Source: Acetobacter musti
GTDB lineage: Bacteria > Pseudomonadota > Alphaproteobacteria > Acetobacterales > Acetobacteraceae
DNA length: 64,000 bases
Direction: 5' to 3'
NCBI RefSeq assembly: GCF_011516835.1
Contig: NZ_WOTB01000002.1
Coordinates: 124,001-188,000, forward strand
Below are positions 1 to 33,341 of the stretch, piece by piece. Made by a program: the position numbers and the translations under genes. Numbering within the stretch: the stretch's first letter is position 1; every line of letters begins with the position of its first letter. The notes below the pieces were generated by a model. That model saw only the letters and a list, made by a program, of their open reading frames with translations. It had not been told where the DNA came from and did no database searches.

Positions 1-543
1 AAATAAACCGGCCGCCCGGCGTTTTAACAGTTACAGCTTCTATGAACAGAGAGAACATTTTCCTTTGCTCCGTTTTTCACAATTCAACGGTTCCGGAAAA
101 CCATGCTCCTTTGCACGGCGACAGAAAAACTCTCTCACTGTGTCCCGTTCCTGACAGGCGTTTCCGGAGCAGAGGCATGGCGTGTCTGTATTCTGGTTCT
201 GGCCTGAAGAGGGGACGGATGAACCGACGCAGAGCCAGGACGTTCAGTTTTATGACGCGGAACATCGCGTGATGTGACCTGAAGACGGGAAACCCACGCG
301 CTCCATTCCGGATGTGCCGTGAGCATATCGGAGCATTCTCTGTTGCTTCCTGTTCCGGGTCTGACCGTACGCTTTTCCGGTCGTCCTCTGCATCCAGGAA
401 TCCGGAAAGGCGGCATTGCTCCGCATCGGAGCGCACGAAAGCGAGATCATGAAATCTGAGACAGGCACCAGAGAGGCTCACGCCGAAGCTGAAAGATCCT
501 GCGAATATCCGGAGAAGGGGGATAATCGCCTGACACTGCGATC
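1..543. other. Intergenic stretch, no supported gene
   Basis: No reading frame here looks like a real protein. The open frames on both strands are short, overlap each other and have unnatural composition. The first 20 bases contain a short GC-rich inverted repeat that could be the end of a terminator for a gene to the left. The stretch probably carries the promoter of the MFS transporter gene that follows, but no clear -35/-10 pair was recognised. Confidence 0.5.
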
Positions 544-1803
544 ATGACAGTGACGACTCTAAAAACCCGCCCGGCCGGAAGCAAAACCGACGGCAGACCG
601 GCCCCGGATACCGCAGGACCGGAGTTTCGCGACACGGTCGCACTGGATGGTCTCAGTTTTCTGCTTGCTGACGTGCAGGATAATCTCGGCGCATTCCTGA
701 CAGCTCTGCTCGCAGCATATGGATGGACGGCTTCCGATATCGGCATGACGATTGCGTCCGGAGGCGTCGGAGCGGTAACAGCCCGGCTCGCAGGCGGCTG
801 GGCTCTGGACCGGTTATCCTCCCGACGGGCATTGCTGGCGGCCTGTTGCGCCGTCACGGCAGTGTCGATCGCGACAGCAGCCGCGTTTCCCGGCTTCTGG
901 CAGATTGTCTGCGTACATTTTCTCGCCGGAGGCGCCGGGGCGCTGTTCTCACCGCTGCTGGCCGCCATCAGCCGGAAGACGGCTGGCGATGACGGCTACA
1001 TGGCGCGGATGGGGCGCAACGAAGCCTTCAATCATTCAGGAAATGCGATCGTCGCCTGTGTGATGAGCGCCGCAGGCAGTGCGGTGGGACCGACCGCACC
1101 GCTATGGGCCATCAGCGGACTGGCCGGGATCAGTCTGCTGCTCGTCGGACTGATGACGCGGGGCGCGGACGCGCCGGAAGTGATGTCCGGAGCATCCGGA
1201 CACGGCACTACGGAGAGCGTGCCGGTCAGGCATCCGCTCACAGACCCCCGACTGCTGGTTTTCCTGTCCTGTTATCTCCTGTTCAATATTGCGAATGGCG
1301 CGACAGTCCCGCTGATGATCGAGCGGCACGCGGTATTTCATTTCGGAAGTCCGTCGTCGATGACGGCGCTCTGCATCATCGTGGCGCAGGCGACCATGGT
1401 CCCTGTGGCCTGGATCGTGGGGAGAGCGGCAAAACACTGGCCGCGCCGTCTGCCGCTCCTTCTCGCACTGGCATTACAGCCGGTCCGTGACCTTCTGATC
1501 ATGTGGAGTGCCCGCTGGCCGGCGATGTGCGTGGCTGAGGTTCTCGACGGGCTGTCTTCCGGCGTTATTCTGGTCCTGTTTTACGCGGTATTATCCGATC
1601 TGGCGTCAGCCGGTGGCCGGCGTAACCTGCTGATCGGCACCGGCCTGGCGGTCGGAACAATCGGAGCGCTGCTCTCGAATTTCGGCAGCGGACTGGTGGC
1701 GACGCATTACGGATTCAACGCGGCATTCCTGATGCTCGCCGGAAGCGGCCTTCTGGCGTTCACGCTGTTTCTGGTCGCGATGCCTGAAACCCGTAACACC
1801 TGA
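544..1803 (+). CDS. MFS transporter
   Basis: Predicted 419-residue inner-membrane carrier with the composition and length of a 12-helix major facilitator superfamily protein. Hydrophobic segments alternate with short loops from about residue 40 to the C-terminus. A central polar loop near residues 200-230 separates the two six-helix halves. A short polar N-terminal tail of about 30 residues precedes the first helix. The substrate cannot be read from the sequence. The ATG at 544 has only a weak ribosome-binding site, so the start is less sure than the family. The gene stands alone: no partner gene lies within 200 bases on either side. Confidence 0.8.
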   Translation: MTVTTLKTRPAGSKTDGRPAPDTAGPEFRDTVALDGLSFLLADVQDNLGAFLTALLAAYGWTASDIGMTIASGGVGAVTARLAGGWALDRLSSRRALLAACCAVTAVSIATAAAFPGFWQIVCVHFLAGGAGALFSPLLAAISRKTAGDDGYMARMGRNEAFNHSGNAIVACVMSAAGSAVGPTAPLWAISGLAGISLLLVGLMTRGADAPEVMSGASGHGTTESVPVRHPLTDPRLLVFLSCYLLFNIANGATVPLMIERHAVFHFGSPSSMTALCIIVAQATMVPVAWIVGRAAKHWPRRLPLLLALALQPVRDLLIMWSARWPAMCVAEVLDGLSSGVILVLFYAVLSDLASAGGRRNLLIGTGLAVGTIGALLSNFGSGLVATHYGFNAAFLMLAGSGLLAFTLFLVAMPETRNT

Positions 1804-32118: not shown

Positions 32119-32201
32119 AATACAGACAGTAACGGAACCACGGGACAGACTGCTCCGTATTGTAACCGCACAGCGCTAATTAACGGACAGGGAGATCATT
32201 G

Positions 32202-32591
32202 ATGCCCGCTTTTCTGCATACGATGCTGCGAACGAAGAATCTCGACGCGAGCATCGCGTTTTACCGGCTTCTGGGAATGCACGAACTGCGGCGCCGGGAA
32301 GTTCCGGAGGGAAAATACACGCTGGTTTTCATGGGCTTTGCCAGTAATGCCGAAGGACAGGCCGAACTTGAACTGACCTATAACTGGGGCGAGGATTCCG
32401 GTTACGATATCGGCACCGGTTTCGGACATCTGGCCGTGGGCGTACCCGACGTGGCCGCGACCGTGGAGAAGGTGCGGGCGGCCGGCGGCAAAGTGACGCG
32501 CGAGGCAGGCCCGGTGAAATTCGGCACGACGGTGATCGCGTTCGTCGAGGACCCGGACGGTTACAAAACCGAACTGATCGAGCGCCGCTGA
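32202..32591 (+). CDS. gloA: Lactoylglutathione lyase (glyoxalase I)
   Basis: Converts the hemithioacetal of methylglyoxal and glutathione to S-lactoylglutathione. The 129-residue protein has two betaalphabetabetabeta modules and the four metal ligands at expected places: His6 (FLHTMLR), Glu57 (AELELTYNW), His76 (FGHLAVGV) and Glu124 (YKTELIER). These match the nickel-type short glyoxalase I as in E. coli. The ATG at 32202 follows GGGAGA; a TTG one codon earlier is less likely. It breaks the usual lpxI-lpxB adjacency. Confidence 0.96.
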
Positions 32592-32651: not shown

Positions 32652-33041
32652 TCAGCCGTTCGTCGCCTTCAGTCTGTCCGTGGCGCGGTCAAGCGCCTCA
32701 AGAATCTGTTCCGCCCGGTTCCGGACCAGTTCGTCCTGATGCATGGATAACTGATCTGCACAAAGCACCGCCGGAGAGATGATCCCGCGCAGATCATGGC
32801 GAAGTTTCGGGGAAATCTCAGCGGTGGCCGACTCCGTTGCAGGTTTCGCAGCCTCAGATGCGGCAGCGTGCGGTAAAATCTCCGGCCGGCGCAGCGCAAG
32901 AGCCGTGACCAGGGCGGAAATCGCGGCCCCCGCAAGATCAGTGCCTGTGGCGATCCACGCCGGAAGCGGGATCAGGCGGCTGATCAGGGCGCAGACAAGA
33001 AAAACGAGAAAGACGGCAACAGGTGGAAGAAAGCGGTGCAA
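32652..33041 (-). CDS. Small membrane protein with histidine-kinase-like phosphoacceptor helix
   Basis: A 129-residue protein not recognised as a named family. Residues 5-25 and about 28-50 form two membrane helices. After an Ala/Glu-rich linker (about 53-76), the C-terminal part reads KLRHDLRGIISPAVLCAD, closely resembling the DHp (HisKA) phosphoacceptor helix of sensor kinases with His82 in the H-box position. A second amphipathic helix follows (EQILEALDRATDRL). There is no ATP-binding kinase domain. It could be a phosphotransfer or decoy protein. The gene is alone, reverse strand, between gloA and rpmH. Existence is fairly likely from codon usage; function is inference. Confidence 0.7.
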   Translation of the reverse strand: MHRFLPPVAVFLVFLVCALISRLIPLPAWIATGTDLAGAAISALVTALALRRPEILPHAAASEAAKPATESATAEISPKLRHDLRGIISPAVLCADQLSMHQDELVRNRAEQILEALDRATDRLKATNG

Positions 33042-33206
33042 GATCCGTGCTCCTGTCGAAATTGAGATGTCCGCACAGGTGAAAACGGACTGCGGCGTTG
33101 ACGTGTCTGGGACAGATGACTATAAGCCCGCGATCTGAGCAAGGCGCCGGAAGGTGTCTGGTCTCTGCTGCCATATTAATCTGAGTTGTAACCGAGGAGT
33201 GCCGCC

Positions 33207-33341
33207 GTGAAGCGCACGTATCAACCCTCCAAGCTGGTCCGTAAGCATCGTCACGGTTTCCGTGCGCGCATGGCGACCGTTGGTGGCCGTAAAGTGATCG
33301 CAAACCGCCGCTCCAAGGGCCGCAAGCGTCTGTCCGCCTGA
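33207..33341 (+). CDS. rpmH: 50S ribosomal protein L34
   Basis: A 44-residue, very basic ribosomal protein with the full L34 pattern: [20 protein letters not shown], then [10 protein letters not shown] and the [11 protein letters not shown] tail. It starts with GTG at 33207, preceded by GAGGAG. It is the first gene of the conserved rpmH-rnpA-yidD-yidC unit. Confidence 0.97.

Follow-up and report, generated by a model that had tools for sequence, protein, structure and literature searches.

Within the 64,000-nucleotide stretch of DNA analyzed here (the window), one gene encodes a 129-residue protein for which sequence comparison supported an identity as phosphoacceptor (DHp) hairpin and an origin from a sensor kinase. 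By locus and profile comparison, its ancestor is a full-length sensor kinase kept by many alphaproteobacteria near rpmH-rnpA-yidC. The kinase domain was apparently lost 6–10 times with the hairpin left behind, most of these events falling on weak branches or in single draft genomes. DHp-type phosphotransferases are already known, and histidine kinases are regarded as dependent on their ATPase domain. What appears new is a natural protein cut to the hairpin alone, repeatedly, from one ancestral kinase, for which we found no precedent in open full-text PMC; among the best-ranked titles there, nothing stood out on either a natural protein of the DHp-only kind or the rpmH-linked kinase. As the best reading of its role we tentatively propose histidine phosphotransfer in trans without a kinase domain of its own, similar to ChpT and PhyT.

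The gene for this stand-alone, membrane-attached DHp protein lies on the minus strand at 32652..33041, as identified from the open reading frame and its homologues. It starts with TTG at 33041 and stops at 32652 (129 codons), and an AGGAG ribosome-binding-like site precedes the start at 33050..33054 (-). Starts in relatives are TTG, GTG or ATG, several of them with a similar site upstream of TTG or GTG. The codon of His82, the conserved phosphoacceptor position, is found at 32796..32798 (-), and the residue sits within RHDLRGIISP. A chance ORF was ruled out by conservation in same-genus, family and order genomes. The locus is marked by rpmH, which is divergent from the gene (33207..33341, plus strand) and was divergent as well in all 84 classified loci with rpmH in range. 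On the other side, a convergent glyoxalase/VOC-family gene (32199..32591, plus strand) is 60 bp away; a relative of it was present in 40 of 101 classified loci.

We combined hydropathy with AlphaFold, run as a single chain on an alignment of 35 sequences, to describe the protein's architecture. Membrane helix 1 (residues 2–23; 32973..33038, minus strand) was predicted clearly by both, with hydropathy up to 2.33 over 19 residues. Membrane helix 2 (residues 28–50; 32892..32960, minus strand) was predicted by AlphaFold and is weak by hydropathy in the window protein (maximum 1.34), being clearer in several relatives. A linker with pLDDT under 50 (residues 56–70) leads to hairpin helix 1 (residues 78–98; 32748..32810, minus strand), which contains the H-box RHDLRGIISPAVL according to model and alignment, and to hairpin helix 2, which AlphaFold placed at residues 104–128 (32658..32732, minus strand). 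The model, with an overall pTM of 0.42 and block-mean pLDDT of 91–97 across residues 81–120, predicts at high pLDDT the antiparallel two-helix hairpin of a DHp domain. The gene stops after hairpin helix 2, where a kinase would continue into its ATPase domain. The first-pass annotation had described a 129-residue frame with two membrane helices, an H-box bearing His82, one more helix and nothing further; position, length and His82 were confirmed from the sequence, and the layout was borne out by hydropathy and AlphaFold, with the second membrane helix weak.

Structural comparison was less specific. Foldseek with the predicted structure gave no match at E ≤ 0.001. VIA-align returned the DHp domains of GacS (Z 5.7) and EnvZ (5.4) as well as ZraS (5.1) and CpxA (4.9), mixed with many unrelated helical chains of similar Z, and is hence unspecific. 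A PDB profile search with the hairpin found 40 sequences at E ≤ 1, none of them named histidine kinase.

Profile searches connect the family to sensor kinases through its homologues. The Pfam HisKA profile (PF00512) did not match the window protein or its core; it did match 26 of 33 homologous hairpins at E ≤ 1, with a best E of 5.9e-6. The histidine phosphotransfer profile Hpt (PF01627) was absent from the 15 families matched by the 33 homologues at E ≤ 1, and the HPTransfase profile was not among the families that they matched. An expected HisKA assignment consequently held for most homologous hairpins and failed for the window protein itself, and the search for Hpt was negative. The window protein has neither HATPase_c nor the degenerate ATPase-like C-terminal domain of the ChpT type, and the loci behind the 59 stand-alone rows of the tree gave no kinase-domain match. 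By comparison, the full kinase L060 at the rpmH locus exceeded the cut-offs for both HisKA (32.6 bits, cut-off 26.9) and HATPase_c (77 bits). Three other matches were rejected, i.e., holin PF07332 (15.7 bits against a cut-off of 28.4), folate cyclohydrolase NF045657 (15.2 bits against 275) and a 25-residue match in Clostridium (L059), dropped as chance.

Full-length kinases with HisKA and HATPase domains occupy the same locus in other members of the family and in other alphaproteobacteria. A kinase stands divergent from rpmH in 21 of the family's 80 loci on the tree. At class level, the hairpin profile matched 199 of 385 genomes at E ≤ 1e-3, the window's own family being counted, with one match per genome among the matches listed; outside the family, the listed matches lie in frames of at least 366 codons, with G817 (182 codons) as the sole exception. 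In ten of 12 outgroups the kinase match is on the yidC contig, within 6 kb and divergent, as judged by comparing coordinates by hand; in the remaining two (G511, G608) kinase match and yidC are on separate contigs. Because of the class-wide kinase frames and the outgroup kinases near yidC, the kinase is, on this comparative evidence, the older state of the rpmH locus. The kinase at the rpmH/yidC locus shares with the window protein its position, its H-box family (SHDLRG/NHDLRN) and the hairpin profile; it differs in having an ATPase domain and in its N-terminal region, which is longer and contains membrane helices, whereas the window protein stops after the hairpin.

Some further observations concern this kinase. 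It extends across many alphaproteobacteria with one match per genome, e.g., L148, L151 and L062. Among the matches listed from outside the family, the frame in G817 (L149, on contig C6) is the one short frame of a kinase, and it appears to be frame-broken and not truly stand-alone. Recurrent neighbors of the kinase elsewhere are a FAD/pyridine-nucleotide oxidoreductase, a VTT-domain (TVP38-type) protein and a SAM methyltransferase, identified with Pfam for single examples and otherwise by eye. No receiver gene was found beside the ancestral kinase in the flanks examined. Similar radical-SAM-like proteins, recognized by eye, lie beside the full kinase in one genome (L075, 4131-5084, minus strand) and beside a gene for a soluble paralogous hairpin in a second one (L318, 2070-3014, plus strand).

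To count the losses, we classified the 101 loci by the residues remaining after the His and by a kinase-domain match in the locus. Six linked housekeeping proteins served for a rooted tree, which comprised 80 of these loci (59 stand-alone, 21 kinase) and 12 outgroups; the other 21 loci had too few columns. The best rooted tree required eight kinase-domain losses if loss is irreversible and seven changes otherwise. Over 500 bootstrap trees, irreversible losses numbered 6 (16 trees), 7 (197), 8 (273), 9 (5) or 10 (9), and unordered counts on the same trees lay between 5 and 8. Another tree, of 46 rows, gave 5–8 over 1000 bootstraps, and an unrooted quick tree eight changes. Five of the eight loss clades are single draft genomes (L069, L215, L220, L209, L158), and several deep branches are weak; two independent pairs remain on strongly supported branches. 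The loss in the window's own clade is old, because this clade holds 45 of the 59 stand-alone rows.

The gene is widespread among close relatives. A single-sequence search at E ≤ 0.01 matched 45 of the 49 genomes of the genus and 171 of the 299 of the family, own genome included in both; the family figure takes in full-length kinases and possibly chance matches near the threshold. A profile built from the alignment of 33 hairpins (A1) matched 199 of 346 order genomes at E ≤ 1e-4, with rarely more than one match in a genome, each lying in a short or a kinase-length frame; this search scores only the best candidates from a first pass, and second copies can escape it. One genome (G065) had three hairpin matches on three contigs, two of them L163 and L164. 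The four same-genus misses are of two kinds. In G033 and G037 the contig breaks off 233 and 41 bases from rpmH, and the divergent flank is missing. The other two, G038 and G039, have small genomes of 1.5 and 1.7 Mb, with lpxI adjoining rpmH.

We also inspected the rpmH surroundings of 30 family genomes with no match. A scan for weak matches had a best E of 1.5, and no weak or His-less relic was present beside rpmH in the 28 of these genomes with a visible flank. The scanned flanks measured about 1.5 kb or less and some full kinases are found up to 4.8 kb from rpmH, and a relic may lie beyond them.

A phosphoacceptor His was present in all 59 stand-alone tree rows, which were recovered with a His-containing profile, its position in L167 being assigned by eye. 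Homologues without the His, which would have spoken against the proposed phosphoacceptor, were accordingly not seen in this His-selected set. The following residue is Asp in 56 rows, Glu in one (L073), Asn in one (L207) and Ala in one (L167). In the hairpin core, dN/dS was 0.04–0.19 for six unsaturated pairs of relatives (Nei-Gojobori), and 0.10–0.45 in the N-terminal part of the same six pairs. Pairs including the window gene gave hairpin values of 0–0.23, with silent sites saturated (core pS 0.60–0.82). These codon comparisons show purifying selection on the hairpin in close relatives.

A decaying remnant without function would be compatible with a gene that is a shortened kinase, and the first-pass annotation had suggested a sensor-kinase remnant as one option. 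This proved apt for the origin, given the full kinases at the same locus, and it failed as a description of the gene's status. The low core dN/dS in relatives, the His kept in every stand-alone row of the tree and the lack of a decayed copy beside rpmH in the flanks of no-match genomes all speak against decay, which we consider highly improbable.

Residues next to the His bear on its chemistry. According to passages of PMC3510030, HisKA proteins need the acid after the His for kinase but not for phosphatase activity, and Thr or Asn at the fourth position after the His (H+4) for phosphatase activity. Retention of Asp83 hence argues for phosphoryl-transfer chemistry in the window protein, whereas L167 with Ala and L207 with Asn, i.e., two of 59 stand-alone rows without an acid after the His, would argue against the transfer reading. 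For H+4 we turned to a larger collection of 135 distinct rows that also takes in paralogues (80 stand-alone rows, plus 55 kinase rows with the frame-broken L149 among them). It was recovered with a His-containing profile and re-centered on the His motif without L167, and it is biased towards His and Asp; the rpmH scan of no-match genomes answers this sampling bias only in part. Stand-alone rows have Gly (58), Asn (19) or Ser (3) at H+4, and kinase rows Gly (31) or Asn (24). Judged from this set, the Gly is no adaptation to the stand-alone state, because 31 of 55 full kinases carry it too. The position before the His is Arg in 60 of 80 stand-alone rows versus none of 55 kinases. Convergent adaptation was considered for this Arg, which occurs in four of the eight loss clades with two independent pairs on strong branches, and was not adopted.

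Alternatively, the protein might act as a response-regulator phosphatase or phosphate sink, the hairpin docking a phosphorylated regulator and dephosphorylating it, a reverse activity that HisKA domains possess. The isolated DHp domain of HK853 forms a homodimer, binds its regulator and is phosphatase-active (as described in parts of PMC5727384), and 19 of 80 stand-alone rows have a suitable Asn at H+4. The HK853 domain is, however, a laboratory construct cut from a complete kinase and has Thr at H+4, whereas the window member has Gly86, as do 57 other stand-alone rows, in place of the Thr or Asn that phosphatase activity requires (passages of PMC3510030). Moreover, the H+1 acid, dispensable for a phosphatase by the same source, is kept in 57 of 59 rows. 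Gly86 argues against a dedicated phosphatase in the window member, and we regard this function as rather unlikely.

The N-terminal part varies among members, which have two helices, one or, as in L046 and L058, none. Most members sampled from the window's genus retain membrane helices, as might be expected of a decoy or dominant partner that works without chemistry at His82, by heterodimerizing with a sensor kinase or by sequestering a regulator. Sequestration also has a parallel in PhyT, which in the passages cited sequesters its regulator too and lost in-cell binding as a His-to-Ala variant (PMC5898713). Against this, the conserved His-Asp is not obviously needed for pure docking, and many members have dropped the membrane part and retained the hairpin. 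A decoy is therefore, in our view, unlikely. Recruitment of the hairpin outside two-component signaling, e.g., as a regulatory or scaffold domain, would fit one locus in which the hairpin ends the ORF of a patatin-like phospholipase. This arrangement was seen once among the 101 classified loci and paralogues pair with a receiver gene, and we think such recruitment quite unlikely. The locus in question, L069 (G067:C288, 288-1409, minus strand), has in the rpmH-divergent place a patatin-like phospholipase (PF01734) followed in frame by the same hairpin.

For the preferred reading, phosphotransfer in trans, we envisage a DHp hairpin tied to the membrane through one or two helices. Two such hairpins would pair into a four-helix bundle. 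His82 would take a phosphoryl group from a receiver domain or, in trans, from the ATPase domain of another kinase, and would hand it to a response regulator, as in ChpT and PhyT. Passages of PMC3433190 describe Caulobacter ChpT as a dimeric phosphotransferase with a kinase-like helical hairpin that does not autophosphorylate; unlike the window protein, ChpT retains an atypical ATPase-fold domain. PhyT of the Sphingomonas general stress response is membrane-bound, as the window protein is predicted to be, and it dimerizes and relays phosphate through a conserved His, taking it from a single-domain regulator and delivering it to an output regulator (parts of PMC5898713). Its phospho-His is His341, so PhyT is the larger protein, likened to the window protein here by its description in that source. 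HPt domains such as Ypd1 share the Gly at H+4, where it is important for transfer (passages of PMC6341664). As a rule, HPt proteins are monomers forming a four-helix bundle (PMC3433190, in part). The homologues of the window protein match HisKA instead of Hpt.

More specifically, these may be DHp-only phosphotransfer proteins made repeatedly by stripping one kinase, with phosphate supplied in trans by some other kinase's ATPase domain, a possibility that we regard as doubtful. A detached DHp can reportedly be phosphorylated by an ATPase domain that is likewise detached, and a histidine kinase has been reconstituted from two domains. If this specific version were true, the kept Asp beside the His would mean a kinase network running with a shared, detached acceptor. 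The hairpin is retained widely and, on our trees, was left behind several times independently, from which it would seem that the ancestral kinase had some task that does not depend on a kinase domain of its own. The family could also offer a natural system of about 50 residues for separating DHp phosphotransfer, phosphatase and docking from autokinase activity.

The genome of the window gave 30 receiver-domain matches and 27 HATPase matches, one of the latter below cut-off. An HDLRG H-box was absent from those HATPase proteins with a readable H-box, some frames being doubtful or unread. At the thresholds used, the hairpin profile matched the window gene alone in this genome. A split kinase with a detached ATPase protein was rejected; the lone short HATPase match (L118) is under the cut-off and, by eye, unlike a kinase ATPase.

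Against the transfer reading, no receiver was found within 2.5 kb of any rpmH-linked member, mostly in 1.5 kb flanks. Among 225 hairpin loci (duplicates and kinases included, most with 1.5 kb flanks), three had a receiver within 2.5 kb. They represent two places, in G123 and G327 of genus g76, where a soluble paralogous hairpin gene lies directly 5' of a CheY-like receiver on the same strand (L216, G123:C117, 5732-6475, minus strand; L320, G327, 385-1106, minus strand). In a third genome of this genus (L317), the receiver gene is visible only as a short opening fragment. Hairpin and CheY-like gene in L216 and L320 possibly form a minimal acceptor-receiver pair. This pairing is the only hint at a partner from gene neighborhoods, and it concerns paralogues in one genus. 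Another soluble paralogous hairpin (L192, G096:C40, 6430-6687, plus strand) lies beside genes that by eye are kaiC- and kaiB-like, with a hybrid kinase on the opposite strand.
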